Made by a program: the position numbers and the translations under genes. DNA of 64,000 nucleotides. Origin: Hericium rajendrae. Taxonomy: Eukaryota > Basidiomycota > Agaricomycetes > Russulales > Hericiaceae. The stretch is from NCBI GenBank assembly GCA_033439255.1, contig CM065883.1, positions 2,542,001 to 2,606,000 of the forward strand, written 5' to 3'. Below are positions 14,455 through 44,489 of this stretch, piece after piece (within the stretch, counting starts at the first letter, position 1; each line of letters starts with the position of its first letter). Under the pieces are notes generated by a model. The model saw only the letters and a program-made list of their open reading frames with translations. It was not told where the DNA came from and ran no database searches.

Positions 14455-15832
14455 GGTGTGTCTGTGTGGGTAGGGTGTGGTTTGGGTGCGGTGGGTGTGG
14501 GTATGGTGGGTGGGCAGGGCGGTGAGCGGGAGTGTTTGCGGGTCGTGAAAATGGCGGGCTGGACTTGGTGAGATTTGGGCGCCAATCGGGCGGGCCGGGG
14601 TTTGCCGTGTGTTCAAGTTGAACGTTGAACGTCGATTCACCAGTGCATGCATGAACATCGGCTCACTGGACCGCGAGTAATACCCTTCTGCAGAATTCAA
14701 CATGTCCATAAGGCTCTATGAGGACCCTCCGACAACCCACCCAAATGTCTGTTCCGCCACAATGGCCTGTATGCGACATTCTATACGGGCTGCCCTGATC
14801 CTCCCGTATACGCATCTCGGAACAGACCTGGCTTTGGGCGGATTGTAACCGCACATCGGAACATACATCTGAAAATCACGAAATCCTCCTAGAATTCCAC
14901 AACTTCTCCTCGAGGCATTTCTGGCATGGCTTTGATATGCCATGCCCATATTTGGCAGCCAGGACAACTCTTTCACAAAAAAATCTATGGAGAGCATGTC
15001 AGCACATCGAACATCCCTAACATTTCGCATCGCCCATTGCGTCGGGGTGGCCTCCATCCTCGACGAAACAGATCTCACCTATTCCCGAATCCGCAGACTT
15101 TGACAATTCACAAAATGCAACGTCCTCGCGCCCTCGCAATCGTCAACAAGCTGGTCAGAAGTGGATGTGAGCACGTATGCTCAGTGCTGCGCCGCTCACT
15201 ATCGGTGCTCACTCATCATGGTCCAAAATGCAAGTAAAACTGGAATCGGGTGAAAAGCGGCCGAAATGACGGCCAGATCATTGGCAATGCCTGACTCGTG
15301 AGGCCTTGTCAATGTGACTCCTGCCTGAGGAACACCTGGCCGGCTGGCCCATCAGTATATGCACGGCGGAACAGATCCTTACCGAAGTGGGTTGGGATAC
15401 ACCCCAAGAACATAGATCTTGGCCAAATTTTAGCCTTTTGTATGCGCGATTTCCACAGACCTCAGGCGCAAGCGCCGTTTGGTATACGATCCGGGATGCG
15501 ACATTTAGGTTGGTTGTCGGGGGTCCTGCTCTATGTAAGTCCTGTTGCCCTCGTCGAGCTGAATTACTCTAACACTGTCTATTAATAGATACGCTGAGAA
15601 CACTCACCCGAGATAGGGCGAAGTTCGAACCAGCGTCTCGAGAGCCAGTGCCAGGCTATCTTTAGTCGACCCTCGACCCTCCCTCTCTGGGCGCCAGATC
15701 CCATCGATGATCGATACGAGGACAGCTACTGCGCTGGCTTGCTCTGTGCTCTCACCAGCTCTCGCTTGCTCTCAAGCTCTCATCGACGCTCAGTCTTAAC
15801 AGACCTACAATCAACTCAATTCACCTTGACTC
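14455..15832. other. duplicated intergenic segment upstream of NACHT-WD40 gene A
   Basis: No supported gene. The block matches 27856-28232 plus 36637-37654, the same segment in unit 2 split there by the transposon. The unoccupied target site CTTTGGGC is at 14832-14839. Remnant open frames on both strands (for example 14716-15078 minus) carry stops in the other copy and were not accepted. The promoter of gene A must be in the last few hundred bases. Confidence 0.6.
14832..14839. other. empty target site of the 8.4-kb transposon
   Basis: CTTTGGGC occurs once here within sequence that continues on both sides into the two flanks of the 28233-36636 element. It is the unfilled version of the site, so the element jumped after the segment duplicated. 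Confidence 0.85.
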
Positions 15833-22626: not shown

Positions 22627-25019
22627 ATTGAGACGGCAAAGACGGATAACATCTGAACACGCTGCGACGAAGCATGTAAAATGACGGGGCCAAGATTGGG
22701 TAAGATCGAGTCCAATGTCGGACGGCACGACCCTGAGGTTGAATAACCGGCAACTCAGCCTTTTGGAGACTAAGTCGAATACGAGAAAAGGGCCCCGCGT
22801 GCGTGTTTCCTGCTTGGAGGTGCGGAACTCTTGCGGAGACGACCGAGCATATCAATCGAGAAAGAAGAAGGGAAAGTACAGAAGTTAATAATTACAGAAC
22901 CTATAGAAAAGATCGAAAATCCTTACGATTAGACTCGCCTCCCCCGCCACAAGGCTCGCCTTTGCGCATCTGGTCCGCCCCTCCTACTAGTTCGAACACA
23001 CAAGGGTCAAATTTCTACTTGGTACAAACACAGCGCATTGGACACCATGCCTGGTTTTTGCTTGCTCAATTTTCACCTACTTTGCAGACCTGCTCAGACG
23101 GCTGGTCGCTCCGATGTTGACCGTTTTCCCTCTTTCCCCAGCCTTCTTCAAACCATTGTCGACCCTCTACAGTCCCCAGATTACCTGCATGCTTCACGTG
23201 TACAACCCGCTGCCGCTCTCCAGTACCTCACCCTGCGCCCCTCCTGGTTCCGAATCTCTGATCCCGAGGACCTCTCGGATCGTCCCAAAATCAGTTTGCA
23301 CTTGCCACGCCTTACGTGGAAAGCCCGTTCCCGCATCCTGGCGTCATAACTTGACGAGAACGTGTCTGCTGTCAATGATTGCGAGGTCGGCGGCAGCGCG
23401 ACAGTCGAGCGACAGCCGGGACTGGTAGACTAGACACGTGAGGGTCCGCGAAGAGCCCCGACACCTCCCAGACGGCGCATACATGGACCCATAATGTGCG
23501 CTGGAGTCCTGCATATTAGTGAGTACATGTTCGAATTTACACGAACAAGGAAGACTCACCGACCGCGTTCCCGTGACAGCTTGACAAGGCCCCTCTACGT
23601 GCTCTGCGCAGCGCGCACCACCAATTCCCTGACCTGACGCCTTCCTTAATGGCGGAGAAGCAGAATTCGACGACAACGCTCCATCTCAGTCCTGAAATGC
23701 TGTGAATAGACAGCTCCAACTTCGCAAGGTACTACATATACTTACCGCTGGCGCAGCATCCGCAGGGCTATGTCTTTGACGCTTCACCGTCGATATGAAC
23801 CCGCCCGAAGAAACACACCCACGAGCCCACCCTGAACGAGCAGCGATCGCGAACCCCAAGGGACATCCAGGCGCGTGATCGTGACGGACACGCGCCAAGG
23901 CAACGCGGCGGTCACCACCGATTCCGTCCTTACGGCAACCTAACGACGCACGCCTACAGCTCAATAAGTCACCATTGTAATCCACATGCGCGCAACACTC
24001 ACTCATTGAGACCAGGCAGCCTGCCCACATTCCCATAACCGGACGATGATGCCCGTCTGCGATGCGCGAGAAGGACGAAACACGGGCGGGGGACTCCGAT
24101 GGCAGGCCGACTTCTTTACCATGGGACGTAGCGCAGCTACAAGGCCCGTTATCGTTCCTACTAGACTTGCGGACACCGGTCACGATCGAGAGGCCAGGAC
24201 AGCCTGCATCGGCCGCGAAAGTCATGTTGCAAGTCGATTGAGTAGATAGTCGCAATTCTATACGAAGAGGAGACTCACAGCGCGCACAGCACCACAATTG
24301 AATGCCGGGAGGCTACGCTGTTGGTCTGCATACCATGCGAGCCCCTCGCATAAGCGGGCAGGTTTCCTGGCGCAAGGGCGAAGCGTGATCGAAGGCAGCT
24401 ACGGGTTTCACCAGCATCGCGCGCGCGAATGCGAATGGTCGGGGCAATAGGCGAGGATGAGTATCCACAGAGCCAGAGTCAGAACGCGGACGTTGAGCGC
24501 ACATCTGTGGAAAGAGCTAAGTTCGGGCTCGTTCTAGGTCTTCGCATAGTACTCACCCATCGACGCAAGAGCAACAACAAGCCTCAAACTTGCCGATGAC
24601 GCCTACCGTCACCCGTGCGACCGGACACAGCACGGGACATCCTCCAGAAGAAGCCTGAAACGGCTATAACACTTGCCACGCCTCGTGATGCCCGAGACAG
24701 CGCATCGTCAAAGTTGACCACGACACCCTCGTCCAGATACCACGCCGCGACGAAAAGGAGGCAGCCCCCAGGCGAGGTGCACTAGTTGCAGGCTGCACAG
24801 CGCATGGCATCGGGAGGGCGCGATGGGAGGGCGTCGTCGAACTTGGCGATGGCTCCCTCGCAACGCCAGACGGCGTGAAGATGTCCGGCAGAGGCCGCAG
24901 GCAGATCGCGCTTGGGAACTCGAGCCGCACTCCCGCATCTGCGTCAGAAGCGTCCAGCTGCGTGACTGTCAGTTGTCGCTCGACGTCGGCATCCGCGGCG
25001 CATTCACTCGACTCCAAAG
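22627..25019. other. decayed spacer of duplication unit 1
   Basis: The first 300 bp are the former ADE2 promoter region, recognisable against 49876-50200. The rest matches 44.5-47.0 kb in unit 2 but with many indels. Open frames on both strands (for example 23686-24297 minus, 24664-25089 minus) are not conserved in phase between the two copies, so I regard the block as decayed coding or intergenic DNA of unknown origin. Confidence 0.5.
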
Positions 25020-25700
25020 AGGCCCGCGCCGTCCGGCGACTTGACAGCCTTCTCCGGGACAGCCCGAGCCCGCTTAGACAACGTTGCATCTTGCGAACGT
25101 GAGGGTGCAGAGACGAGGTGGCAGATGTTGTGTTTATGGGCGGTCTTCGCGAGCAGGTAAGACCGTGCTTCGCCTAACTTCGTGCGGACGATCGTCGGCG
25201 CCATCTCCTCGAATGGTCAGCCTGCGCATTGCCGAGTTCTGTGCCTCTTCCAAAACATTGACATTGACGTATCAATATCGACAGGCAAGATGGACGCCCT
25301 CGATGCGAGCGCCGTAGTCTGTGCTGGATGAGGGGAGGATCCATCTATGCAGGCAAGCTCCAGCATTGTGGGTGCGAGAGCATGTTTGCAGGGCTATGGC
25401 CGACATCGAAAATAACGATGTTGACGTGGAAAAGTGGCGTGGAAGCCGCGAGAGTATGGCGTGCCCGACCTCCGCCTGCGAGGAAACGTCAATTAGGCAA
25501 CGGCGACGGAAGGATTAACGATCTGTGCGGTGGTCGATCGAGCTGCGAGGACGAAAGGAAATACGCAGATGCACCCTGTCCTATACTAATCCAAGAACAA
25601 GAGATGCAGCCCCGCGTACGATTCCTGCTTGGAGGTGAGAAAATTACTGCAACGTCGAGGGTTGGTCGAGGGAGACGAGGGACGGAGACAAGTCACAGAT
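25020..25700 (-). pseudogene. ADE2: ADE2 5'-half fragment (pseudogene 2)
   Basis: A second, more decayed relic of ADE2 in the same unit. The block [47 protein letters not shown] corresponds to the end of the PurK-like half of the intact protein. Upstream, pieces of exon 2, the first intron and the promoter follow to about 25700, where the sequence passes into MDH 5' sequence. There is no PurE half. The same fragment is at 47041-47700 in unit 2. Confidence 0.75.
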
Positions 25701-25778
25701 AAGATCTAGATTAGATCACCGGAGGCATCGAGTTGTTGGCCGGATCAATCGGGCTCGTCGTCCGCTTCCCGCACCTCG

Positions 25779-27190
25779 TCCTCCACGACACTCACTGCCC
25801 GATCAAGGTTGCGATTCTCGGTGCCTTCGGAGGCGTACGCAGCTAATACCGCTTCTTCTCAAGCTCAATCCCCATCACCCGGGTCCCTCTATGATATCTG
25901 CAACGCACCTGGCGTCGCCGCCGATGTGAGCCACACCAATACCGACAGTAAGGTGTGTGCATCTACTTGGCAGTGGGGACGGACGTATGACATGGTGCAT
26001 GTCGCGCGTTGGGAGCGTGGGCCGCGCATTTGTCTGGTCTCTGCATCCACATTATGGTTCCTCGGTCCAGCCTTTGGTCGCTTTTCCTGCCTATACAAGG
26101 GTTTTCAGGGCTCTCATGCTCGCGTCGTTTACGCTTTTACTTCTGCATCTCCGAGCGATGGAAATCAATCCATGACGGAATGCATGTCCTTCCGGATTTA
26201 CTCGCATTCTTTCGAAATCTTTACGTACCCCGATTCTGACCTTTCCCTTGCAATTCTGCTTAGGTGAAAGGCCTTGCTGCTGCCCACCTTGATGCCGCTG
26301 TGGAGGGTGACAAGGTTGTGATTGTCATCCCCGCCGGTGTCTCCCATAAGGTATGCTCCTTCGTCGCTTCATCTTGATCACTGTCCTGACTTTTCTCTGC
26401 AGCCGATTAAGTTCCTATCACACCCTATAGTCCTATTCTCAGTCAATCCATGACGACATCTTGAACGTATGCCTGGTTTCATCTTTGCGTACATCTCCCT
26501 TGACTGCCGCGCAGACCGACGCCTCCATCGTCCGCGACTCCGCCGCCACGGTTGCGCGCGTTACGCCCGAAGCCCACTTCTCCACCATCTCGAACCCGTC
26601 AATCCGACCATCCCCATCGTCTCGCCAAAAGCCGGCGTCTTACCCGTGACGCGTGTTCGGTATCACGACGCTCGATATCGTGGGCACCGCCGGCTTCCTC
26701 GCAGGGCTCACCGACGGGGGTTTGAAGGAGAGCACCATCGCCGTCGTCCGCGGGTACTCCGATGCGACGATCATGGAGCTGCTCGCAATCGTCGTTCTGC
26801 AAGAACATCACTGGCCCGGCGTACGACCAGCTCGTGCACCGCATGCAGTTCGGTGGTGATGAGGCCATCAAGACGAAGAACGGAGCGCGCAGCGGGTCAT
26901 TCACGATGCCTTGCGCCTGCGCATGCTTCACCGACGCATTCCTCCGCGGCCTGAACAGCGAGAAGGGCGTCGCGACTGCGACACTCGTCGAGCGTCCGCT
27001 GTTCGGGGACCAGGGTGGTGAATTATTCTCGACTTGGCGTGCGTAACACTGCTCATGTTCTTCCGAATTTTTTACTGATTTCGTGATGCCGCCCAACGGC
27101 TTTGAGCAGATCTTCCTGTTCGGTCCTCTCTCCGTCATGGAGAAGCTTCTGGCAGAACATCGACAAGAGTAATATGTTCGTCGCCCAAGC
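25779..27190 (+). pseudogene. malate dehydrogenase pseudogene
   Basis: A decayed copy of 12017-13626. The exon order, the long first intron and the splice sites can still be followed ([14 protein letters not shown], then VKGLAAAHLDAAVEGDKVVIVIPAGVSHK, then FGGDEAIKTKNGARSGS). The targeting sequence is deleted, the NAD-binding loop is ruined (LGAFGGVR), and several frameshifts occur from 26600 on. It cannot make a working enzyme. It begins at the duplication-edge block 25779-25794. Confidence 0.88.
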
Positions 27191-27344
27191 GCAGCTTCGA
27201 CTAGGCGCAGGCAGAGTACTTATATGCTATCCATCTCTTTATTTCCGCATCTATTGTAAGGGAAATCAACTGTATGACTACGAAAGTATGGCCGAAAACG
27301 CAAGAATGCTCGACATACAGCAGATATAAAACCTCGTTCGGTCG

Positions 27345-27855
27345 TTGTCGTCATCTGCACCATCGTGGGCCCATCCTCATCAACCACCGGCCTCCGTGGT
27401 GCTTCATCTTCTTCTCCGCATCCACCAGCGTCGGTACCTCGCCCTCGTTCGCCTCGCCGTCTTACTCTTCCACCCCCTCACTCCCGCCTTCTCCCGCCTC
27501 ATCCACAACTGCACTCCCGCATCCTTTCCCTTGATCTTTTCCGCCCTCTCCTCCTCGCTCGCCGCCGCCCACAGCCGCAAAGCCATCGGCACTACCACCC
27601 TCCAGCAGCACCTCGAACTCCTCCTGCATCGCGACAACACGATGCCCTCGGCGTCCGACGGCGCCCACTTCCCTTCCGTACTCGCGCCCGAGGACGCGGA
27701 CGCATCGAACAGATCGAGGACGCCCGACGCGATCCAGACGCGCTTCTTCTCACGGACCGCGCGCGGGCCGCCCCAGCCCTGCGCGACGGCCAGAGCGCGA
27801 GGCGCGCGAGCGCGCCGCGGGCGAGGAGGACGAGTGCCGGCGCTGTGTTGGACAT
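27345..27855 (-). pseudogene. TSR2: TSR2 pseudogene
   Basis: A damaged copy of 13807-14454. It starts MSNTAPALVLLARGALARLALW and then suffers a deletion and frame changes; AVAQGWGGPRAVREKKRVWIASG continues in another frame. The acidic tail is partly lost. It sits next to the MDH pseudogene in the same convergent arrangement as the intact pair. Confidence 0.88.
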
Positions 27856-28232
27856 AGTGTGGTTTGGGTGGGGTAGGGTGTGTGCGTGTGGTGGGTGGGC
27901 TGGCGCCGTGCTCGACGGTGAGCGGAGTGCTTGCGAATCGGAATTGTGAAAATGGCTGGCTTGAGATTTGGGTGCCCGTGCGCCGGGCCGGGCTTTGCCG
28001 TGTGTCCAAGCTGAACGTCGATTGATTCACCCGTGCATGCATGAACATCGACGCACTGGAAGACCGCGAATAGTACCCTTCTGGAGAATTCGACATGTCC
28101 ATAAGGCTCTATAAGGACCCCCCGACAACCCACCCAAATGTCTGTTCTGCCAAAATGGCCTGTATGCGACATTCTATCCGGGCCGCCCTGACCCTCCCGT
28201 ATACGCATCTCGGAACAGACCTGGCTTTGGGC
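27856..28232. other. left part of the duplicated TSR2-NLR intergenic segment
   Basis: Matches 14455-14839 with small changes and ends in CTTTGGGC (28225-28232), the left target-site duplication of the transposon. No gene. Confidence 0.7.
28225..28232. repeat. left 8-bp target-site duplication
   Basis: CTTTGGGC directly abuts the left terminal inverted repeat; the same eight bases follow the right end at 36637-36644. Confidence 0.92.
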
Positions 28233-28273
28233 CAAGGGGCGTCCGCGATCAGAATTCACTAAAATGACTACCC
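28233..28273 (+). repeat. left 41-bp terminal inverted repeat
   Basis: Perfect reverse complement of 36596-36636. Identity stops exactly after 41 bases (next base T versus G). A shared AGGACCCC lies a little further in on both sides at different spacing. Confidence 0.95.
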
Positions 28274-28538
28274 TCAAGCGCAGGACCCCATAAGACCGCT
28301 ACCATGACTATAAATGGAAAGGTGTCATAGTCAGTGACGTAAAAATTCCTCGAGCGTTAGAGTCGTCGTCGAAATACGAAGTATCTGTACCGTAATTACA
28401 CTGCGCAGAATAATGATTAGTTGCTTAAAAAAGGGATATATGGAATGAGGTATAAATGTCGAGAACTATAGTGCAAGGATTAAGTATGGTCCGTTGTCGT
28501 GAGGCTTTTAGCTTTAGGAGAAAAGTAGGGTATGGAAA
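28274..28538. other. subterminal non-coding end of the transposon
   Basis: 265 bp between the left inverted repeat and the stop codon of the transposase C-terminal half. No gene seen. It should include the transposase 3' UTR and transposase-binding sites. Confidence 0.4.
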
Positions 28539-30145
28539 TTACTTCGACTTCGGCCGCTTTGAGGTACTAGGAGCATTGGAGTTCTTGCGGGGACGAGATG
28601 GAGCCTTGCGCTTCGAAGGAGCGACAGGTGGCGCCGGCGTCGTTTGGCATCCCGTGAACGGAAAGACGACGGAGATATCACTGAGCGGGACTGTGAAGAT
28701 TTGATCCTTCACGATCCTGGAGAACTCCTCGCTCGATAGGATGAGCTTTGCATTGAGATCGTGGTCGAGGCCTTGTGGGGCACGCTTGAGAGGGTCCCAG
28801 TGGTGGGGATGGTTCGTTCGAATATGGTCATACATTGCGTACTTCCAAAAGGTCGGGGTTAGCTTCGAGAGCGGATCAGGACCGCAGAGTGAGCACGAAA
28901 CTGGCACATTTGTTGATGCCGTTCGTTCAGATGATACCAGAGCCATGTTGTACTTGAAAGGATGCTGACGAGGACAGTTTGTGATGGTCTGAAAAGACTT
29001 GGAAGTTGTCTTCTTCAACGCGATACTGCAGCCACTTCGACCACAGAACCCGCACGCCACGCTAGGAACAACCTGTGAACAATGAGGCCATGAGGATGTG
29101 CAGATAGTATAGAAATAAAACACGCACCTGCTCTCTTAAACCGGGCTCAATGATCCCTACGAGTGCACGTAGTATGTGAATTCCGACGTGCGCGCGAGCT
29201 CGGTCTTGTGCAATCAGTACGCCGCACTGATAGCAAGCAACCTTGCTAGTATCTGAACTGTTTCGCTCCGTGAGGATTTGAGTAGCACTACTAACGAGGA
29301 AGCATCGAGAGCCTTTTATATCGAGAACATCACTTTCAGTACGAAGTAGGAATCGGAGAGAGTAGGATGTACGCACCTTCACTGTCCCGATACGGTAAAG
29401 CATCGCTGTCGCCATACTTTGTCAGCTTCGTTAACAATTCTGTGGGATCTGTAGCGGCATAGAGCATGTCGACAAGCTCTACATAATCATCGTGATTTAC
29501 AGCCCATGTACGATCGACTTGCTTTGCATCCAGGGTACCTCTTGCTTCAGCAGGAAGGGCTGAGGTGGGCTGAGATTCGGCGGTGATGGGATAGAGAAGA
29601 TCGCCCGTGATACGAACCAGATGATCTTTACGAGAGGTCATCTCTTGAGCTTGGGAGGAGGCTGCTAAAGCGGATGCCGGTGAAACATTTGCGAAGTTAC
29701 CTGTCCAGGCCCATTTGCGTGACCATGTCAGTGGCGCAGCCAGCTCGCTCGCTGAATCAAAAACGGCCGATGACGAAGGGAGTTCTGAATCTGCAATAAG
29801 AACTTCCCTCATAGTGAGGACCTGTGCTGTAAGCTGAATGTCTGATCCAGACGCTTGACCGAGATCTTCGAAATCAATCTTCGTAAGTCGACTCCCCTTT
29901 CGGTCAATTGTGCTGACTTTGACGAGGACCACGGCAACTGAATCCTGTAGATGTATAGGGCAGATTGCTAGGTCGCCTGTGAGGAAGGCCTTCTTGCCGC
30001 AGAAGCTATCGTCGCTAGGGTCAAATTTTCGCCAGTCCTTAGAATAGCAGCGCACTCGAAGCAAGCGATCGACGGACAATCTTGAGTAGTCTGAGTGAAA
30101 GAGGGAGCTTAGAATGGATGCTTTATGGAGAGATTTTTTTTTCCC
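28539..30145 (-). pseudogene. transposase-like protein, C-terminal half (separated by nested insert)
   Basis: Three exons (about 30145-29377, 29312-29128, 29072-28539) join in phase. The piece begins ...LHKASILSSLFHSDYSRLSVDRLLRVRCYSK, which appears to continue the broken end IEHLRKS of the other half, and has no start codon of its own. It carries a C2H2-like finger (CYQCG...RAHVGIH), the block CGFCGRSGC and a third Cys/His cluster (CSLCG...MYDHIRTNH), then a basic Lys/Arg/Pro/Ser tail ending SKRPKSK, a likely nuclear localisation signal. Introns are 64 and 55 nt. From memory, related Agaricomycete proteins have both halves in one gene; that recollection is unchecked. Confidence 0.65.
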
Positions 30146-30559
30146 TGTATCCAGAGTACACTCATCTGAAAAATCTCAAATTTATATAGCTACCAGTCAC
30201 AATTATCTAAGCTATGAGAAGCTATATACATGACTTCTATAGATATATAGGTCTATAGTAGCTATATAGCTTATATAGCCATCTATGCCATCTATGTAGG
30301 TCTATATAGCTAGTTAGCACAGCTATAGGAGCTATAGATATGTCTCTACCTGCTATGTAGCCTATGTAGCCTATATCCACTATATCACATTGTAAGTGTA
30401 AGCTATGTGCTATGTCATCTATGAGATACACACCAACTATAGACATTATCCAGAGTATACATATAATATAGGTCACACCAAAGGTAGTCAAACACACTTA
30501 TATTATTTGAATCAAAATTAGGTACAAAAGTTCAGGAATTCTAATTATAACTGTGTCGA

Positions 30560-31590
30560 GCGCCGGCGCGGGTGCTGATGCCGTTAAGCGCCATCAAGCG
30601 CCAGCGCCTGTTAAACACGCCGGCGCCTGTTGAGCGCAGGCGCGGAGGGCGCGCGAATGGGCGTGCATGGGCATAAGCGCGAAGACGCACGGCGCGCGTG
30701 GGCGGGGCATGGTCGTGGGTGCGAGCACGGGGATAGGACGCGTGTGCGCATATGGCGCGCGCGAGCGCGCGGTGTTCGACACGGGTGCGGGGCATTGGGC
30801 ACAGGCACGGGGCGGTGGGGCGTGGCGCGCATAAGCGAAGCGCTGGGCACGCGGGCGGAGCCATGGGGGTTGCACGCAGGGCCATGGGATGCGCATGCGG
30901 GGAAGGCGCGGGGCATTGCGCGCAGGCTGCGGGACATTGCGTGCGCGTTGCCGCGAGACGGGGCCGTGCGGGGGCATGCGCGTGCGCGGACGGCCGTGCG
31001 GGCGGGGCGTTGCGCAGACAGCCGGGATGTAACGCAGGCGGCCGTGGGTGTGAGGTGCGGGCGCGAGGCGTTGCGCGCACATACAAGGCGTGGGGCACGC
31101 GGGCGCAGGGTCTTGCGGGCGCAGGGTCTTGTGGGCTGTGTTGCGGGCGCGAGCGCGGTGTGGGGGGCGAGCGCGGTGTGTGAGGGGCGAGCACGTACCG
31201 TGACGCGAACGTGCAGGCCCGTGGGTCGTGCGCACAAACGACGTCCCGCGTCCCGTTGCCGTGGCAACGGGACTCTACGGCGGGCGGACGTCGACGGTAC
31301 GGGCGGTGACGTGGCCCACGCGCGCGTCGTTAACACCGCGCAGACAGCGTGGAACGCCGCGGGTGCGTAGTCCGTCGCCGTGCGCGCGAAGGTGGGTGCC
31401 GGGGTGCCGGTGACGGGGTGGTTTGGGCGTGGGGCGTTGGGGATGCGCGCGGGGGGCAGTAGGTGGGGGTTGGCGGCGTTGTTGGAAAGGCGGAAGGGGG
31501 AGTTGACGGCGAAGACGGCGAAGGTGGCGACGGGGACGTAGGACGGGCAACGGGCAGCGTGCGGGTGTTGATGGAGGGCGTGGGGGCGTC
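30560..31590. repeat. G-rich low-complexity minisatellite-like core
   Basis: Strong G over C strand asymmetry on the plus strand, with short degenerate units such as GGGCGCAGGGTCTTG repeated in tandem near 31105-31135. Long open frames here are Arg/Pro/Ala-rich and come from composition alone. Confidence 0.6.
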
Positions 31591-31598
31591 AAGAGAAC

Positions 31599-31626
31599 GA
31601 GTGTCGCTCGTTTTCGAGCGACACTC
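31599..31626. terminator. perfect 12-bp stem hairpin with TTTT loop
   Basis: GAGTGTCGCTCG is followed by TTTT and its exact reverse complement. It sits at the right edge of the G-rich core. Its role is unknown; the terminator label is only the nearest category for a hairpin. Confidence 0.5.
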
Positions 31627-31947
31627 TGTATTAGCACGAAGAACTGATTAGAAAAGCATGTTTTACTTACCTGCACCCTCTGCTGACTCCGAACCCACTC
31701 CTGCCGTATTGACGCTCGATAGATGACAAAAAGAGGAAGGGAGGGAGGGAAGACGGAGGAGAAAGGAGAGTATTAGTGAGGGAGAGTAGTGAGAGGGAAC
31801 AACTTCAACAAGTCTCGACGCGTTAACTCGGTGCTTCAGCCACCGAATACGCGAAGAGACTCAACAAATCGAATAAAATAGCTAGAAATACGAAAAAAAG
31901 ACGTTAACTATGGATTATGAATCCGACTAAGATACATGAGCTACTTC

Positions 31948-32240
31948 TGTAACACGCGTACGGTATACTACTAGGTAGCACGGTTAAGATAGCCAGATCT
32001 AATACTTAGCCTTTGACGCGGCACTCGGCAGCACCCGGCAGCCACGATTCTCGGCTTCGCCCGAGACTCGTATATAAGGCTCGCGCAGACGCGCCTTGCC
32101 TCTTGCTCTTTATCCCCACTATGTCTTGCCACGTCGATGCTTCGTCGTCGTTGGTTGCTCGCTCGTCGTCGTTGGTTGCTCGCTCGTCGTTGCTGGTTGC
32201 TCGCTCGTCGTTGGTTGCTCATCGTTGCTATCTCTATTAA
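31948..32240 (+). promoter_or_regulatory. promoter-like block, possible solo-LTR piece
   Basis: Starts TGTAACACGC, has TATATAAGG at 32071-32079, then a C/T-rich start-like stretch and about four tandem units of roughly 21 bp (GTCGTTGGTTGCTCGCTCGTC, 32140-32228), followed by a GTAAGT. A candidate LTR end TTACA exists near 32482, but no 5-bp target duplication matches, so the LTR reading is weak. Confidence 0.25.
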
Positions 32241-32999
32241 GGTAAGTTTCTATTCTTTAATCTCTTATGTCTTGTGCTGATGTTTTCATACTTGTATCAG
32301 TACCTTTGTATACTTACTAGGTAAGGTTTGTTATGTCTTATACTGATGTGTTATGAATTGTCTAGTAGATTTTCGCTTTTCTATTAGTTTGTTAACCTTT
32401 ATTATGTTTTCTTTGATCTTTCAATACTAATATATATTTGTTTTAGAAATTTTCCGCTTTTTATAGTGATGGTAAGTCTTACAATATTCTATATGTATCT
32501 TGATTAATGCTTATATTGTCTTAGATTGTTCTTACTATTTAATATATTATATAGTATAATGTTGTAGTATATTGTGATGTTGTAATTAGTCAATGAATAT
32601 TTGTTATCTTTTATCTTTTGTGTGATCTTTGTAGATGGTTTACTATATCAGTATATAGATATTTGTATACTTTTACTAAGTCTGGTATGACTATAAATAC
32701 ATATCCTAACATTATAATCTATTGAAAATATGTAGAATATTTAGCTGATTGTCACCATCAGAGTATCTATAGTATTTGTAGTGAATATCATCTACATAGC
32801 TACCCTTATAGCTTCATAGCTATGTCTTGTAGCTCTATAGCTGTCATAGCTATTCCTTATAGCTTTATAGCTATCATAGCACTCTATAGCTATCCTAAGT
32901 AGCTCTATAGCACTCTATAGATGACCCCCTTCTATGGCCATCTATAGAATAGGTGGCATAGCTATGGCCCTATGACATTTATATAATCTATATAGAGCT

Positions 33000-35900
33000 C
33001 TATAGCCATGTGGATTTTCTCAGATGCTCAATCCAATCACGGTTCTCCGATTGTGAGCTCGATACCACGCCCTGAGAGTCAGGCTCGCCCAGCAAGTCAT
33101 CGAGCTCAATGCTACCAGGAGAATGAGCTTCTTCGGCTTTCAGATGTGTTGCTGTGGGTTCTGGGTTCTCTGCTATCAGAGAGCGATCAGGCTCCGAGCT
33201 GGAAACGCCGGGATATGTATTGCCTCCGAATGGACACATGAAATCAACTCCAGCAGTTGAGAGTGTTGTCGCAAAATCGAAGTGAATGCCATGCACGTGC
33301 AGGTAGTTTGACGCGTCGATTCTTCCCGAATTCCAGACCGTAGTCAAGTAGACATTTTGAACAACGAGATCGCCCTTGAAGTATGTCGGGTTCACATGAT
33401 CCACCCCGTCACTTCCCGAATATGAAGTTCTCCGATGGCCACGATTCCAATCTGGGTGACGACTGTAGATTGCAATGCAGTCCGCAGATGCTGAAAGCCG
33501 GTCACAGAGCTGCAGGGTATCACAGTTACAATCATGGCACATCGTCCGTACTTCGCAAAAGATCTCTTCGAGACGATCTGAGCCGAGCTGATAAAGATAA
33601 AATGGGTTTGTCGGATTGAGGAGAGATTGCCGTGCGACACATATGAATGCTGCTTTCACGAGGGCTTGTGTGTCACTATATAATTGGCCAGTCATGAAAG
33701 ACGACTTATGTCGGGAGAAGAGGGCGAAGCACATATGAGCATATGCAGACAAGGATCGCAGCTGGTCCGACAACGAAAATATCGGGTTGATGAACGCCTG
33801 AAGAAGCAATTTCCACAGCTTTGCAATGACGTTGATAGCGCACATGTCGGACTGGCCTGATGGATCGAGAGATGACGAATCCATATCTGCAAGTGTAGAT
33901 AGCGCGGTAAGTAGACGGACTGCGCGCGGAACATTCTGGTGATCCTTCGGGTCAATTAATGCTGCGACGCTCTGTTCATTCTGACCAGGAAGGCGAGAAA
34001 GATGCCTTTCTAGCATGTTCCGATTGACAATCGTATCGTTAATTAGCATGCCATCCTTGCTGCGAAGTAAAGTAGCAGCCCCTATAAGCAGCCGAGCCAA
34101 AGTCAGTCTTTGCTTTACGGGGCCTGATAGGAAAGCAATATCGTACGCTTTAAGATATGCTTCGGGTCCGGGCACATCACAATTTCGTCTGCGCTGCAAT
34201 TGAGATTCAAGCCCTCCAATGTTGATAGCAGGGAATATAATGGCTTGGCTCCTTGGAATCTACTGTCCATGAGGACTCGAAACATAGCACCTCTGAATGT
34301 CGCATTGCCATCTGTTGAAACGATCCAAAGTGGGCCTGGACCGTGTGCTTTCCATTGCTCGATTAGCAAGCGGACGACGACAGCAAAATCCTCTGATGTC
34401 TCTGACTTGCATGTGCCTGATGCCATGATGGGAATGGGCTCGTACCGCTCTTGTCCGAACGCGCCGACTGCGGCGACCGTAGACTCCCGAGCATAATGGC
34501 ATGACGGTTCAGCACCATGCACTGCTTCAACAATTTTGAGGATCGATTTTAGGTCCGTCATCGCAAGATCGAGTCCTTCACTGTGTTCACGACAAAAGCC
34601 AACAATCTGGTTCGTGGATTTCCACCATCGAGCACGCTGATTCAATGCTAGACCATCAATCATCAAGGCAAAACCACGCATCACGCTCTCGACAGGGACA
34701 GAGATAGCCCGAGTGCAGGAGATAATGTTTTGAGCAATTTCTGATGCTTTGGGGCGTGACGAGCATGGGATGATGGTGGGTGATAACATGCGATTTTGGA
34801 CCGTAGTGGCCGAAGGTAAGCCAAAGGCCTTAGAGAGCGCAAACAAGCCCTTTCGGCCGGAAAGATGTCGAAGGAGCCGTGCAAGATCAAAGTCAAATTC
34901 GTCGAACCCGCGGACCTCGTAAACGCCCTCGACTGCCCGTTCAATGCGGGACAGGATGGCGCGGGGACTCATTCCCTCTTTGAGCGCAAGGTTGAGTAGT
35001 TGACGAACACGCTTCACATCTTTCGTCGCAATCGCCATCATCAATCGCTTGTAGTCATCGATGCGAACGATCAGGCGATGGACTCTAAGAGCCTGGTTAT
35101 TAGCCTAGGAAAACCGGTGAGTTCTATAATTTGTTATGACAGAAAGTGGCCTAACCTGTATTTTCAACCGGGCAATCTCCTCTGCTTTCTGGTCCAGCTT
35201 TGCGACAAGTTGAGCATGGGTGAGCCATTTATATGGCCAATGTCCTGTTTCCGTGGCTTGCGCTCGCAGGTCAGCCAGATGAATCGCCCGTGGAGCCTGG
35301 AGAAGTCGGCAGGCATGGCAAGCATTTAATTGGTCCTTCCACCGCGCACAGCGATCCGATCTTATCCATATGCAGATACCTCCACCGTCACTGCTCCTGA
35401 AACCAGCCAGGCAGAATCCGAGGGTTCCATCGTGATTTTCGAAGATCTGCCATGGGAATGTTGTGAAGACTGACCCTGCACGCCATTCGAGCGGGACGCC
35501 ATCACAGACGTCGTCTACCCTGTCCGAGCCACTCACTTCGCTTCTCGTCTCAGACTCTACCCCATCATCTTCATCTCCGGATAGGTAAGGCTTGTTGCCA
35601 ATTTGGACCGGCACAGATGTTGACCTCCTTGGAATACGAGGTGGATGAAGCAAAATGCTATCTGCAGCAGATGAAAGACCTTGAACTTGGAGAGAGCTAG
35701 TGAAGCTTCCTTCTGACAGAGCTCGAACTGAGGGCAGGAAGCGCTGTGGAGTTGGTGGAATCATTCTGATGACCGGAAGTGAGTGCTCTTGCTCGCTGCT
35801 GGCCATCGTTGTCGACGCTGACATCTGCTGTTGCTTCCCTAGCTTCCTCTGCTGCGCCTTGCATTTCTTGCTGTCGCGATGCAAGGTGAGCGCGTGCCTT

Positions 35901-36265
35901 GAATGCTGCGTTATATTGATAGTGACCCCACATAGATCACATGGAGTAGGAATGAAGGCTGTCGCACTCCTCGCCGTTGCCGGTGAGGTCGAGATGTGGA
36001 GTGATCCCGGGTGTGCGTTCTCAGCGGCGCTGCGTGGCTCAGATGTCCGTTCTACCAGCTGAACGTGTACGAATTGGAACCTGTCCTGCGGACTGAAGTC
36101 TGGGTCATAGAACTCAACCTCCTGAAAGTCTGTATCATCGTCAGTACTGCTTTCCGAGCCACTATCCGCGTCGAAAGAGTCATTTATGATATCAATAGAA
36201 TCTGAGCCTGGAGAAGAACGAAAACAGAGTATGATAGGGCTGCAGTGATCACTGGGTACGTTCAT
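33000..36265 (-). pseudogene. transposase-like protein, N-terminal and catalytic part (3' end lost)
   Basis: Three exons (36265-35156, 35104-34147, 34081-33000) join in phase to 1049 codons. Order: acidic N-terminus; a C2H2-like finger CDLCG...HSRHALTLH (C109, C112, H124, H129); a Cys/Trp cluster CARW...CHAC; a coiled-coil-like stretch (LVAKLDQKAEEIARLKIQ); the block DFDLARLLRHLSGRKGLFAL..AFGLPS; then acidic residues in conserved settings, D520 (LMIDGLAL), D635 (VSTDGNATFRG) and D683 (CPDPKHILKR, followed by KDGMLINDTIVN). These suggest an RNase H-fold DDE/D transposase like P-element/THAP9. The frame ends in the nested insert (STWL, stop), so the conserved C-terminal fingers are cut off. No activity is expected from this copy as it stands. 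Confidence 0.7.
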
Positions 36266-36595
36266 CTATACGCTGAATCCCGTGGCGCAAGAGTTTCGCA
36301 GTGTCGACGCGGTCTGTTGAATAGCGCGACGCGATATTGAGTACGGGCGCATACACGCGCCGCGCCGTAGCACTGGATATTGGAATGATATGCGAATGGT
36401 TTCAAAACGGTGGCAGCACAAATCTTGAAAATATTCATATGTACTCTACACATCAAGTAGATTAGGATAGACATGGAATTGCACCACTTTGTAAGAGCGA
36501 GAACGAGTCTCCGAGAGCGATTCACTAAGCAAGGCAAGGATAGTGCAGATTGTGGCGTTAGCGTCCGGGGTCCTCGATTTTCATGTCATACCACC

Positions 36596-36636
36596 GGGTA
36601 GTCATTTTAGTGAATTCTGATCGCGGACGCCCCTTG
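36596..36636 (-). repeat. right 41-bp terminal inverted repeat
   Basis: Reverse complement of 28233-28273 without a mismatch. The transposase ATG lies 331 bp inside this end, so the transposase promoter is probably between 36266 and 36595. Confidence 0.95.
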
Positions 36637-36644
36637 CTTTGGGC
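36637..36644. repeat. right 8-bp target-site duplication
   Basis: CTTTGGGC follows the right inverted repeat and continues into the sequence homologous to 14840 onward. Confidence 0.92.
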
Positions 36645-37654
36645 GGATTGTAACCGCACATTGGAACATACATCTGAAAATCACGAAAATCTTCTTAGAA
36701 CTCCACAATTTCTCCTCGAGGCATTTCTGGCATGGCTTTGATATGCCATGCCCATATTTGGCAGCCAGGACAACTCTTTCACAAAAAAATCTATGGACAG
36801 CATGTCAGCACATCAAAGATCCTTAACATTTCGCGTCGCCCATTGCGTCGGGGTGGTCTCTGTCCTCGACGAAATAGATGTCACCTACTTATTCTCGAAT
36901 CTGCAGACTTTGACGATTCACAATTTGCAACGTCCTCGCGCCCTCGCAATCGTCAACAAGCTGGTCAGAAGTGGATGTGAGCACGTATGCTCAGTGCTGC
37001 GCCGCTCACTATCAGTGCTCGCTCATCATGCATCATGGTCCGAAATGCAAGGAAACCTGGCATCGGGTGAAAAGCGGCTGAAATGACGGTCAGATCATTG
37101 GCAATGCCTGACTTGTGAGGCCTTGTGACTCCTGCCTGAGGAACACCTGGCCGGCTAGCCCATCAGTATACGCACGGCGGAACAGACCCCTACCGAAGTG
37201 GGTTGGGATATGCCCCAAGAACATAGAGTTCTTGGCCAAATTTTGGCCTTTTGTATGCGCGATTTCCACAGACCTCCGGCGCAAGCGCCGTTTGGTATAC
37301 GATCCGGGATGCGGCATTTAGGTTGGTTGTCGGGGGTCTTGCTCTATGTAAGTCCTGTTGCACTCGTCGAGCTGAATTACTCTAACCCTGTCTATTAATA
37401 GATACACTGAGAACACTCACCCGAGATAGGGCGAAGTTCGAACCAGCGTCTCGAGAGCCAGTGCCCTATCTTTAGTCGACCCTTGACCCTCCCTCCCTGG
37501 GCGCCAGATCCCATCGATGATCGACACGAGGACACTGTTCCTGTGCTCTCGCTACTGCGCTGGCTTGCTCTGTGCTCTCACCAGCTCAAGCTCTCAAGCT
37601 CTCATCGACGCTCAGTCTCAACAGACCTACAATCAACTCAATTCACCTTGAATC
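36645..37654. other. right part of the duplicated segment upstream of receptor B
   Basis: Matches 14840-15832 closely with small indels. No gene supported. It should contain the promoter of receptor B. A box-B-like GTTCGAAC is present near 37437 (and 15623) but no tRNA fold was found. Confidence 0.6.
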
Positions 37655-40600
37655 ATGGCCGAGGAACCTCGTAACTCTCGCGGTCGTCTTCGCTTCAGAC
37701 GACTCTTTTGTTGTTCTTGTACCCCTTCGCGTGACAACAGTCCCGCGTACACTCTCCCCCCAACCAGATCAGCCTCTGAGCTGCGCGTTTCCGACTGCGC
37801 TGATGTTCCAGACCCGTCTTCCAGCTTGGGTCAAGGTCTGCGCGGCGAAGCCGCTCTCGAGTCTCCTGCAGTCCCAGCCACAGAGGAGCATACTAGTGTT
37901 GTCCATTCGCGCGATACCAGTCTCGCGTACGTCCCTCTCCCCACTAGATCAGCCTCTGAGGCGCCTTCTCCCGCCCGCTCTCGTGCTTCGGATGTATCTC
38001 CCAGCACGGATCAAAGTCCGTGTGGTGAATATTCTTCGGAGTCTAGTGCAGTCTCAGCCACGGAGGTGTATGTTGGTTTAGCAGCTCCGCGCAATACCGC
38101 TCCTGCGTATGCTCCTTCCCCCACCCGATCAATCTCTGCGCCACTTTCTCCCAACCGTGCTTGTGTTCCAGATTTATCTCCCAGCATGGATCAAGGTCCG
38201 CACGGCGAAGCTGCGGTTCCTTCCGAGTCTCATACAGTCCCGGTCACAGGCAAGCAATCTATGCTAACGACACAGCAAGACACATCCCCGGGCACAGCTG
38301 AGAAACCCAAGTCTCCAATCAGATCTCTCGTGTGGACAGGTTTCAAAGAAACCTTGAAAGCGGTCGAAAGGGCATCCAATGCATTCCCTCCTCTGAAATC
38401 AGCTGTTGCCGGTATGAATGTCATTCTTGATCGCGTCGAGGTGTGTCCCTGAATATTGCTTGCTCTGATGATCACTTATCCTTGCACAGATGGTCCGCGA
38501 TAATGCCATGGCTTTTGAAGTTGCGAACGAGAGACTCAAGCAGCTTGAAAACATACTTCGTGAGTACGAAGACTCGACTCCGATCATTCGGCGCACAATT
38601 AGGAATTGCATGGAACATCTTGCCGAGTATGTCCAGCGATAAGATGTTTATATTCTAGATCACTGATTAGGCATCCAGAAAAATTACTGAGCAGCATGTT
38701 TTCATCGAGCGCAAGGACAAGCAGCAGCGTGGCATCACGAGGCGCATCATCGAAGCTTCGGATGACCATATGGAGATGATAGGCTTTGCCAGCAAAATCG
38801 GAGATTTGATAAATGACCTAGTAGCATGTAGCATGTCACTTGTATAGTTATGGACTAGAGCTAATTTTCTGATTACAGCTGGCTGGTGTCTTGGATACAC
38901 AAAGAGGTGTTGAAGAATTGCTTAAAGTATGTGTATATCTGTGCATTGTTTGTTGCTTGCTAATTGTATCTGTATAATAGGATGGTAAGCTGTATTGATA
39001 TCTCCAGAGCTATGACTGAGACATTCTTCAGCCAAATTCAACAAGCTTAAACATGTTGCAAAGGCAGCTTTCAATGGTCCTCACTCTTTTAACAAGGGAT
39101 GCATGGAAGGCACTCGAGAGTCTATTCTTAAAGAACTGATGGCATGGGCTGGAGATCCTAATGCTTCCAATCTTTACTGGTTGACTGGTCTTGCTGGAAC
39201 TGGCAAATCTGCTATTGCTTATACTCTATGCAGGCATCTGCATGAAGAGAATGTTCTTGGTGGCAGCTTTTTCTGCTATCGTCAGGATGCTCTACAACAA
39301 GGAAATGTGCTTTGTATTCTGCCAACACTTGCTCAGTTTATGGCTAGAGCATCTTTCTATTATGCAAAAGCATTGTGTCAGAGTCTTGACAAAGAACCTG
39401 ATGCTGCAAAACTATCTATTGATGTGCAATTTAAAACTTTCATACTGGATGCCTGCAGAATATCTGGCACTAATTCAAAGACACATGTGCTGATCATTGA
39501 TGCATTGGATGAATGTGAAGATATTGAAAAGACAGCCACACTGGTTGAACTTTTTATGCAGCATGCTCAGAAGCTTAAAGAGCTCAAAATTAAAATCTTT
39601 ATAACTAGTCGTCCAGAAAAAGATTTTAGACTCACACTTGATGAGATTGACTCAAAACTTTATCTTCATCATGTTGAAGACAGCTTTATCAGATCTGATA
39701 TTCAGTTATATCTTCAAAGACAACTATCTGATATTTTCAAAAAGCATTATAAATCAGAAGAACCAACACTATCTTTGAATCAGATTGAAGTACTGTGTAC
39801 TCAGGCAGGCAAATTATTTATATATGCTTTTACAGTTATACAATATGTAAGAGCAGGAAATGCAGATCCTGAAGAACAGTTAAATATATTGATAAACATC
39901 AATCACATTGAATTATTCTCAATAAACAATCAGATGAAAGCATTATACCAATTTATACTCTCAAGTGCATTTGAAGGACTTCATAAAAATGCAATAACTC
40001 ATCGTCAGCACTTTTTAGCTTGTATCTTGTCACAGATTGAACCAATGTCAGTAAATATGATAAGCAAGTTTCTTGATGTACAAATTTATTACTTGCAGTC
40101 AATAATGAATAAATTTTATTCTATACTTGACATTCCATCTGACATACACAAAGGCTATGTTACTACATTTCATGCATCACTTGAAGACTATATTACAAAT
40201 GAGAATCTAAAAAACAAGTCTGCTTGGCATATCAATAAAATTACACAACATGATTATATGACACAAAGATGTTTTGAGATTATGAATGATCATCTTTATT
40301 TCAACATCTATAAATGTAAAACATCCTACCTTTCTAATGATAAGCAAGCTTTAGCTGAAATACCTGAAGAATTAAATTATGCTTGTTGTTATTGGCCTGA
40401 ACACTTTTTACGTTCATCATATAATAAAGATATTTTGAATCAACTCACTATCTGGATGCAAAATCAGTTCTTATATTGGCTAGAAGTGATAAGTGTCAAA
40501 TCTATGGTTACTCAAAGCACAATTATGCTTAGAAAAGTGTATCAACTTATATGCAATGAGGTATGTAAATTATAATTGCACATTTTGAGTTGAATTAAAA

Positions 40601-42111
40601 ATTATATTTCAGAAGTATGTCACAACTGAAGTACTATTATTAAATGATATGTTGCATTTTTTAAACATATATCAAGAGCCCATATCTAGAAGTGTAGCTC
40701 ATATCTACATTTCAGCTCTAGCATTTGGAATGACAGACTTCAGCAGCTTTACCATTTATAGCAAATTATTTTTCAGACTTTTATCAGTATACACCAATTA
40801 CAAAAGCAATCTCTATAATAATATTCTAATATTGTCTGAACACAAAGATTCTATAAGCTCAGTTGCATTTTCACCAGATGGAAAATACATTGTGTCTGGC
40901 TCTAATGATAAAACTATCAGACTTTGGAGCTCAGAAACTGGTGAAGCTGTGAGAAATCCAATAGAAGGACATACTGATTATGTAACTTCAGTGGCATTTT
41001 CACCAGATGGAAAATACATTGTATCTGGCTCTGATGATACAACTATCAGACTTTGGAGCTCAGAAACTGGTGAAGCTATAAGAAATCCAATAGAAGGACA
41101 TACTTCTTATGTGTCTTCAGTGGCATTTTCACCAGATGGAAAATACATTGTGTCTGGCTCTGATGATAGAACTGTCAGACTTTGGAGCTCAGAAACTGGT
41201 AAAGCTGTGAGAAATCCAATAGAAGGACATACTTCTTATGTGTCTTCAGTGGCATTTTCATCAGATGGAAAATACATTGTATCTGGCTCTTGGGATACAA
41301 CTATCAGACTTTGGAGCTCAGAAACTGGTGAAGCTGTAGGAAATCCAATAGAAGGACATACTGATTATGTATGTTCAGTTGCATTTTCACCAGATGGAAA
41401 ATACATTGTGTCTGGCTCTTTTGATGACACCATCAGACTTTGGAGCTTGGAAACTGGTGAAGCTGTGATAAATCCAATAGAAGGACATACTGGTTGTGTA
41501 TGTTCAGTGGCATTTTCAACAGATGAAAAATACATTGTATCTAGCTCTTGGGATACAACTATCAGACTTTGGAGCTCAGAAACTGGTGAAGCTGTAGGAA
41601 ATCCAATAGAAGGACATACTGATTATGTATGTTCAGTGGCATTTTCACCAGATGGAAAATACATTGTGTCTGGCTCCTATGATAAAACTATCAGACTTTG
41701 GAACTCAAAAAACTTTAGTCCTGCAAAAAAAATAGAAGAAAGAAACATGTCATACATATCATCAAACACCTTTGGTAAGCAACATACAATATTTATAATA
41801 TATTTATCCATGCTTATAGCTTTTATACAGATGCTCATCAAAAGCTAATATATAATACAAAAACATCAAAAAATCTTGATCTTATAGAGATTGAAGAGGC
41901 TATTAAAGCAGCTGTTATTGAATACAAAAAAGATTCATGGATCCTTGGTCCAGATAAAGAACTTCTGCTTTGGGTTCCACATCATTATTTTCAATATCTC
42001 CATTGGCTACACAATGCTTTTATTATTGGTCACAAGATATGTACTCTTGATTTGAGCAAATTTGAGCATGGAGAGACATGGATACATTGCAAATCATCCA
42101 GTTTGGCTTGA
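37655..42111 (+). CDS. NACHT-WD40 STAND receptor (fungal NLR-like), copy B
   Basis: Paralog of 15833-20308 with the same eight-exon plan: 37655-38440, 38490-38626, 38679-38820, 38879-38926, 38981-38984 (4-nt microexon), 39032-40560, 40613-41774, 41831-42111, giving 1362 residues with no frameshift or stop. It keeps the Cys-cluster N-terminus, the three Ser/Pro repeats, NACHT with GLAGTGKS and VLIIDALDEC, seven WD40 repeats and the C-terminal tail. Changes concentrate in exon 1 and the WD40 units, whose variable triplets are NDK, DDT, DDR, WDT, FDD, WDT, YDK. Adjacent units within B are more alike than the matching units of A, pointing to repeat homogenisation. The second-to-last unit has weakened motifs (STDEKYIVSSS). 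The likely role is non-self sensing, by family. Confidence 0.9.
38981..38984 (+). other. 4-nt microexon of receptor B
   Basis: GATG between a TAG acceptor and a GTAAGC donor, identical to copy A. Confidence 0.72.
40850..41705 (+). repeat. WD40 repeat array, receptor B (7 units of about 129 bp)
   Basis: Seven near-identical 129-bp direct repeats. Long runs such as ACTATCAGACTTTGGAGCTC recur almost unchanged in every unit, more uniform than in copy A. Confidence 0.85.
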
Positions 42112-42381
42112 GATCTTTGTATGTATATATGACTGCTATTGAAAACTTTCATCTTGCTTTGCTATGATATTGTTAATTGTTACAGATACTATAATTTTTT
42201 TTCATTATTGAAAGCCTTTCCATTATGCCACAAAGAAGATTACTTTCATGCTTATATAAATTAATTGATTTGTGTTTTAGAGAGTATATTTTTGTTTTAT
42301 TTAATTTATTATACCTTAGAATTAAGTGAACTTTTGTCTGATACAAGCATCTCTTTTGTACTACTACTTTGTCAGAATATA

Positions 42382-44489
42382 TTATGATTTTTTTTACTTT
42401 ATAGTTGTTCCATCCAATCTCCTCCAGCTTTCTTACTTTGTTGATAACCTCTGTCTCTAATGACACAAAGTAAGCCTCCATATCCATTACACACTGCCTG
42501 CATGACACATTTTTTTCTATGATATAGTGTGGAAGTAATTTTGAAAATAGTTATTCTTTCTTCCTCACTTCTGCAAGCCAGAAACCAAGAATAACTATTT
42601 CTAAAATATTTTTTACACTACGTTATGGGAAAAAGTGAGCCATGCAGGCAGTGACAAGCCGAGGAAACCTAGCTGCCAATATCTGCATAGCAAGAAGCCC
42701 CACATTGGTCCCATTGTTGATGGCCACCGTCGCGACAGAGATCCCCCTCTGCAGCACAATACATCAACAGCACGAAGTACACCGCAGGTAAGCGGACGTT
42801 CCGGCATCTGCACGATGCTCTGCAACGAATCGACACCATCGAGGGTGCTGCCTTTCACGGGCACACTAACAACAGGCAGCGCGGTCATCGCCGCGACCAT
42901 GCCCGGTAGATGCGCCACACCCCTCGCGCCCACGATAATCATCTGCAAACCCCGCGCGGCGGCTGCACGCGCATACTCGACGAGCCGATCAGGCACGCGG
43001 TGCGTCGACACGATCGTAAGCTCATATGGGATCCGGAAGCGGTCGAGGATGCGCGCGGCGGGGAGCATCGCGGGCACATCTGGCTCCGAGCCCAATGATG
43101 ATGCCGACGAACGGCTGCACATGTGAGTGGCCCTCCCGCGGCGCAGGCGCGGAGAGCGTGAGGTCCTCGGCGGAGCGGCCGCCGGGAATGCGCTCAAGGA
43201 GCGGGCACAGGCGTTCGCGCAGCTGTGCATCTGATTCCATGACGAGCGTGATGTGGCCCATCTTGCGGCCCTGTGGCAGTCGGCTTTGCCATACAGGTGC
43301 ACACTGGCGCCGGGGACGGTGAGTGCGAAGTGCGTGAAGGCGATGATTTCAGATAGGTCGGGAGAGGCACCGAGGACGTTGAGCATGGCGGCGGAGGGGA
43401 CTTTGAGTGTCAGTGAAGTCGAGCGGGAGGGAAAGGATGGCGCAAAGATGGTTTTCATATTGAGGTGTCTCGCAGGCTTCGATGGTATACTCTAGTGGCC
43501 GGAGTTGTGGGGACGGGGTGCGATCTCGTTGACTAGGATCTCTCCTGTAAAGTCTAATTAACATGTAACGTGCACCTAACCCGGGGCGAACATACCGTTG
43601 TCTAGGAGGAACATATCTACGCCAAAGACTCCCGCACCGTCCAGCGACTTGACAGCCTTCTCCGCGACGGCCAGAGCTCTTGTGGACAATGTCGCATCTT
43701 GTGAGCGTAGTGGTGCGAAGACAACATGGCAAATTTTGTGTTTGTGGACAGTCTCCATGACCGGGTAAGACCCACCTCACCCGACGTCGTGCGAGCAACC
43801 ATCACCGCAATCTCCTTCGCGAACGGGACCCAATGCGCAGCAAATACTGGCCTATCCCCGAGGTAAGTGATGGCCTTTTGGGCTTGAGATTCCGCACGGA
43901 CGACAGAATTTCCGCGGCTGTCATAGACCAGCATTCTGTTTTTAAGCACGAGCGGCAGACCGAAGTTGCCGACAGCGGTGTTGATCCCTTCTATTGACGA
44001 CACGACAGGCACGGATTCTGCTACTGGGATATCGTGCGAGAGGTGCTGCTTCTGCAGGAACTTGTCCTGGATGATGCGGATGGTAGAGAGGCCTGGATGT
44101 ACCAGCACGCTGCCCGAGTTCTGGAGCTCTTCCAAGACATCGACGTTGACGTGTTCGATCTCCACGGTCAGAATCTTCATTTCGATACCAGCTCCTGAAT
44201 CTTCGCTGGATCGGAGAAAGATTCATCTATGCGGGCAAGCTCAGGCGTCATGGGTGCGAGTATTTGCTTCGCGCGGCTATGGCTGATGTCGAGAATGACG
44301 ATATTGACATTGAGAAGGGATGCTGAAGCCGGAGCATACGGCCCAGCTGACCCTCGCCTGCGAGAAATCGTCATTGAGGCAACAATGAGGAAACCACTAA
44401 CGGTCTGTGCGGTGGTCAGCTGAACTGCAAGAACAAAAGAAACAATCAGACGCACCCTGACCTAGAGTACCCACTGTCTTTGGTCCCAT
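42382..44489 (-). pseudogene. ADE2: ADE2 pseudogene 3, with the same MITE insertion
   Basis: Counterpart of pseudogene 1 in unit 2. It begins MGPKTVGTLG at 44489, then [20 protein letters not shown], and a long open stretch to [25 protein letters not shown]. It shares the frameshift that turns [12 protein letters not shown] into KADCHRAARWA, and has further frame breaks. The last exon is split by the foldback element at 42492-42653; beyond it the C-terminus still reads VMDMEAYFVSLETEVINKVRKLEEIGWNNY, but the original stop is lost. GGGQLGRM of the nucleotide-binding start is also damaged. Confidence 0.9.
42492..42653. mobile_element. 162-bp CACTA-like foldback MITE, copy in ADE2 pseudogene 3
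   Basis: Same length, ends and ACA duplication (42489-42491 and 42654-42656) as 20631-20792, at the same codon of ADE2. The insertion therefore predates the tandem duplication. Confidence 0.8.

Follow-up and report, generated by a model that had tools for sequence, protein, structure and literature searches.

P elements are a founding model of transposition, but outside animals their deep history is sparsely documented. Elements of the hAT superfamily make 8-bp target site duplications, as P does, and their transposases have one Trp in the interval from D(2)H to the final catalytic E. Zisupton, grouped with Kyakuja and Dileera as KDZ, is described as making duplications of the same length (PMC12730594), and both hAT and KDZ elements occur in the genome analysed here. 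The signature given for P transposases is D-D-[C/D](2)H-E (PMC8230255). Galileo, within the P superfamily, is described with 7- or 8-bp duplications (PMC4168063) and, compared by description only, differs from the present family in its long repetitive terminal inverted repeats (TIRs) and its GTANTAC preference. The rust fungi Puccinia and Melampsora, which also belong to the Basidiomycota, were reported in 2011 to carry P elements (P-1_PSt, P-1_MLP and P-2_MLP); in that account (PMC3164196) the Melampsora elements have 8-bp duplications and none of those in Puccinia is intact, and here too our comparison is by description only. The family described below is therefore not the first fungal P lineage, and the idea, drawn from a first-pass annotation of this DNA, that a fungal P branch as such would be new is not supported. 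Our literature search found no paper on P elements in Agaricomycetes.

The locus lies in a 64,000-nucleotide stretch of the Hericium rajendrae genome (contig CM065883.1, positions 2,542,001 to 2,606,000; hereafter the window) and is a genuine cut-and-paste transposon that was recently mobile. Its 41-nt TIRs are perfect, and CTTTGGGC flanks it on both sides as an 8-bp duplication. A paralogous flank at 14700-15000 provides the empty site, where a single CTTTGGGC stands without the element. When the two flanks of the element are joined they align across that site with 14387-15283 in a single alignment of 920 columns at 86.8% identity with 54 gap positions. The inverted repeats, the direct duplication and the empty site had all been claimed in the first-pass annotation and are confirmed. 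The features, in window coordinates, are as follows.

14832..14839, no strand: empty paralogous site outside the element, with one CTTTGGGC and the element absent
28225..28232, no strand: left target site duplication CTTTGGGC, present as a single copy at the empty site
28233..28273, plus strand: left TIR, 41 nt, 100% complementary to the right
28539..29260, minus strand: C-terminal transposase exons, Cys-rich, bounds approximate, severed by the insert
29377..30162, minus strand: continuation of the exon 3 frame past the insert, continuous in the 648-aa frame of the sister copy L046
30163..33026, no strand: nested element of 2864 bp with its own inverted ends, duplication CT and no coding evidence
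33027..34081, minus strand: transposase exon 3 up to the insert, spanning the region from D(2)H to the last catalytic residue, with a D.LE..F motif that includes E861
34147..35104, minus strand: transposase exon 2, with an HTH-like LPS..TV region, D520, D635 and D683-P-K-H686
35156..36265, minus strand: transposase exon 1, with start codon, C2HC finger, a second Cys-containing region and, by eye, a coiled stretch
36596..36636, minus strand: right TIR, 41 nt, 100% complementary to the left
36637..36644, no strand: right target site duplication CTTTGGGC

The transposon sits between two tandemly duplicated units of about 13.4 kb, at about 14263-28232 and 36645-49881 of the window. These units form an NLR-like cluster of NPHP3_N/NACHT and WD40 repeat genes with a 129-bp repeat unit. 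Frames of the first unit match NPHP3_N at 4.4e-24 and WD40 at 4e-93, and NACHT at 1.6e-4, a match that falls short of the model's cut-off.

The 8.4 kb between the outer TIRs had been described as one complete element; it is two, a P-like transposon and, inserted within it and disrupting it, another transposon. The nested element begins with CATCTGAAAAATC and finishes as the inverse of CATCTGAGAAAATC, ends of the form CATCTG..CAGATG, with the 2-bp duplication CT on either side (30161-30162 and 33027-33028) and a GC-rich core between AT-rich CTATAG-type flanks. The sister copy L046 (C14:155129-160658, 5530 bp, duplication GCTCCGAC) lacks it: its identity to the window is 99.6% for 28232-30164 and 99.3% for 33027-36636, and no sequence separates the two matches. 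Exon 3 of L046 runs on as one 648-aa frame into the region equivalent to window 30162-29377; in exon 1 the L046 frame is shifted. The frame is thus uninterrupted past the insertion site in L046, and the window transposase is therefore cut short inside the insert, at 33000; since the stop at 33000 falls within the insert, the coding pieces at 29377-28539 belong to the same gene, as its cut-off C-terminus. The native size of the P-like element is most probably about 5.5 kb, a judgement that we make jointly with the classification argued below.

Genome-wide, the end motif of the nested element was counted 409 times and the reversed control motif 8 times, which suggests some 200 genomic copies. 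Similar inserts lie in two further P-like copies, at a different position in L047 with an AA duplication and in L050 with a CA duplication; the window copy, L047 and L050 thus each show the insert with its two ends and a 2-bp duplication, and L053 shows a single end. Stretches resembling the nested element occur at L047, L048, L050, L053 and L054, at differing positions. The nested family may possibly prefer P-like transposons, or the two may share TE-rich neighbourhoods. No transposase was recognised within 30163-33026. Plavaka-B is described with CATCA..TGATG ends and 2- or 3-bp duplications (Kojima 2025, PMC12730594), and the ends and 2-bp duplication of the insert would fit a non-autonomous relative of it, a likeness in the ends only.

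Exons 36265-35156, 35104-34147 and 34081-33000 join at GT-AG boundaries into a 1049-aa product, in which the previously claimed D520, D635 and DPKH at 683 were all found. Its N-terminal finger, read by eye, has the form C-x2-C-x(16-17)-H-x(4-5)-C. The THAP model PF05485 matched neither the window protein nor the N-terminal piece of L055, whereas P itself matches at 1.2e-6, so that as far as tested the idea of a finger in place of the THAP domain stands, with the finger of C2HC type. Towards the C-terminus, the frame at 29072-29421 matches zf-C2HC_3 at E 6.9e-5 with 23.1 bits, under the model's 24-bit cut-off. Downstream frames of L051, L052, L054 and L055 carry an extra Cys-rich tail, C-x-C-GE..C..CETQWV, with a PHD-like look to the eye, and a Pfam scan of the L052 and L055 tail pieces gave no match.

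The family to which this protein belongs is spread through a genome of 46.8 Mb in 19 contigs. Searching with the exon 2 protein gave 18 matches that group into 13 transposase-bearing loci, at 23-100% identity over the matched stretches, and several subfamilies are present. We scanned 16 copies, the window and 15 fetched loci, for ends; 10 of them (the window, L046, L047, L049, L051, L052, L055, L056, L059 and L060) have CAAGRGG ends with a perfect 8-bp duplication, and the duplications are mutually different, with no consensus by eye. L048 has both ends and no 8-bp duplication was found there. Five copies were not judged, L053, L054, L057 and L058 having one end and L050 none by the scan of the fetched DNA. 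Two of the 10 are short non-autonomous derivatives with both ends and perfect 8-bp duplications (L059:1192-1648, 457 bp; L060:7837-8605, 769 bp). The near-identical pairs, the window with L046 and L053 with L051 (99.0-99.5% identity), point to recent movement or duplication. Searches for related loci with the family alignment gave 169 pattern matches in viral contigs and 35 in genome contigs, none confirmed as a relative, and viral contigs searched with part of P gave no pattern match.

In an alignment of six family members (A1), D150, D265, D313-x-K-H316..K319 and E491 are invariant in all six; D150, D265, D313, H316, K319 and E491 correspond to D520, D635, D683, H686, K689 and E861 of the window protein. 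The order D-D-D(2)H-E is that of P (6P5A) and THAP9, and the distance from the second D to the E, 221-227 residues, is close to the 228 of P and 239 of THAP9. An LPS..T segment ahead of the core, the D..H..K motif and, for P, the 8-bp duplications are further likenesses. The differences lie in the spacing of the first two Asp residues (115-121, against 73 in P and 70 in THAP9) and of the second D and D(2)H (48, against 36 in P), and in the C2HC finger and Cys-rich C-terminus in a protein that matches neither the THAP nor the other Pfam models. The GTP-binding D444 of P also has no aligned partner here, where the D(2)H motif and E are 173-179 residues apart.

The element is most probably a cut-and-paste DNA transposon from a branch of the P superfamily that is divergent and THAP-less. 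Neither Pfam nor NCBIfam, P models included, matched the window protein or the family; in particular, PF12017, PF21787, PF21788 and PF21789 failed to match six members, a majority-type sequence and its pieces, whereas Drosophila P itself, as positive control, matches these four and PF05485. PF21787 also found nothing in the Hericium genome, a weak result because 0 of 14 control genomes matched either. We treat the P models of Pfam as detection models and not as the definition of the superfamily. Because none of them matches, P membership rests on remote homology, and is probable rather than proven.

That homology appears when P and THAP9 are combined into one profile. With P alone, hhalign finds its best stretch in the D..H..K region at a score of 24.0 and a probability of 1.1%, which one of 150 shuffles reaches, and at default settings just the D(2)H region aligns. 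The combined P and THAP9 cores score 33.9 (probability 13.2%), which none of 120 column shuffles reaches (mean 16.1, sd 2.6, max 24.3), in an alignment that extends from LPS..T as far as the first catalytic D; a further collinear stretch covers D(2)H. Full-length P (1-569) with THAP9 scores 32.4 (probability 8.3%), again above all shuffles (0 of 30), with three collinear stretches, from LPS..T to the first D, at D(2)H and in the vicinity of the final E. Over all comparisons the hhalign probabilities are 1-13%, the range of remote similarity. Single sequences and controls score lower: THAP9 alone 20.2, Tol2 alone 21.4, Hermes alone 19.6, and the mixed pairs P with Hermes and THAP9 with Tol2 16.6 and 20.3. 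That THAP9 by itself does not exceed Tol2 and lies near Hermes counts against the P reading. The hAT pair reaches 20.5 at full length (equalled by 3 of 40 shuffles) and 20.4 when trimmed (4 of 60), and KDZ, represented by a 143-aa piece only, 14.7 (15 of 40).

The catalytic register gives a second line of comparison, read from hhalign alignments with a lowered confidence threshold so that long alignments are drawn. At three settings, P residues D230, D303, D339, H342, K345 and E531 sit on the six invariant family residues, a set that includes the residues whose importance in P and THAP9 was demonstrated by mutation, according to PMC8230255. All six are thus in register with P, against a maximum of four in 100 trials with shuffled P, 16 of which gave three or more; THAP9 has four of six in register, Hermes two, Tol2 one and the hAT pair none. 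Across all invariant columns, 26 of 59 aligned with P are identical, which is inside the shuffle range (mean 17.1, max 33). We infer that the core around D520, D635, D683-x-K-H and E861 has an RNase H fold.

Of the features that mark the P superfamily, 7- or 8-bp duplications in 10 of 16 copies, the D, D, [C/D](2)H, E string in six of six members and profile homology beyond shuffles (0 of 120 and 0 of 30 with P and THAP9) were found, and matches to the P models of Pfam and an N-terminal THAP domain were not. The first-pass proposal of a P-like transposase stands in so far as the catalytic register, the combined P and THAP9 score and the 8-bp duplications bear it out, and not in any match to P models. 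A related reading, possible though doubtful, would make the family a sister lineage of P at superfamily level, one that either never had the THAP domain or exchanged it.

An improbable alternative is a separate, undescribed RNase H-type superfamily that makes 8-bp duplications and resembles P only in its D-D-(2)H-E layout. Such a lineage would account for the empty Pfam and NCBIfam searches, for the missing THAP domain, the longer spacing of the first two Asp residues and the unpartnered D444, and for single-sequence scores that are marginal for P (1 of 150 shuffles) and at hAT level for THAP9. Matches to the PDB are also chance-like. Exon 2 gave a hydrogenase maturation peptidase at E 0.024 and THR2 (8g9k) at E 5.1e-4, the latter over 65 residues of the helical part that precedes the core, and the family profile gave ZCCHC8 at 0.033 to 0.15 and lipases at 1.5 and 2.4; we take these as chance because THR2 was not recovered with the profile. 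However, a P-like layout by coincidence sits poorly with a P and THAP9 profile that scores above 120 of 120 core shuffles and 30 of 30 full-length-P shuffles over two to three collinear stretches, and with the in-register alignment of all six key P residues.

A divergent hAT or KDZ element is very unlikely. The 8-bp duplications, which hAT and Zisupton share, and a short C2HC finger that could pass for the BED-like finger of hAT are compatible with it. Yet the models for these superfamilies work in this genome, the hAT dimerisation-domain model matching 33 times with none at loci of the P-like family and the KDZ model PF18758 at least 172 times, among the matches listed none at P-like loci, and no hAT or KDZ model, Dimer_Tnp_hAT included, matches any of the six family members. 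The first-pass annotation had asked for a profile search and named a clear best match to hAT or KDZ as its refutation; none appeared. Neither the hAT pair nor the KDZ piece rises above its own shuffles. Hermes D180 and D248 fall on A1 positions T336 and D398, neither invariant, and its E572 has no aligned partner. Between D(2)H and E no Trp is common to all A1 rows, and the sole Trp common to the five rows that reach there comes after E. With no profile match, hAT catalytic residues out of register and controls at shuffle level, hAT and KDZ membership was rejected.

Finally, that the 8.4 kb is a single complete element, with a 2.9-kb intron in its gene, as TIRs and a duplication bracketing the entire length might suggest, is ruled out almost beyond doubt by a 2.86-kb stretch with inverted ends and a 2-bp duplication of its own, boundaries that are not GT-AG, an end motif found 409 times against 8, a similar insert elsewhere in L047 and its absence from L046.

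For the divergent P branch that we favour, the predicted protein suggests how the element may move. A multi-exon gene would encode a DDE transposase that starts with a C2HC finger at the N-terminus and continues through a coiled stretch and an HTH-like LPxxTV segment. These would be followed by a presumed RNase H core, in which an insertion separates D(2)H from the final E, and by a Cys-rich region at the C-terminus. The enzyme may bind the CAAGRGG ends through its fingers, cleave by a two-metal DDE site and join the ends into the target with a stagger of 8 bp. As for the window copy, its C-terminus has been lost to the nested element.

If this classification is correct, a recently active, THAP-less fungal branch missed by current Pfam would bear on when the THAP domain was recruited, on what in the P core is indispensable and on whether the need for GTP is ancestral. 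A transposon family left unlabelled by these profiles would also gain a class. Should the family instead be a sister lineage of P, its C2HC finger and Cys-rich C-terminus would read the CAAGRGG ends, and such transposases may explain part of the long proteins that lack annotation in mushroom genomes.
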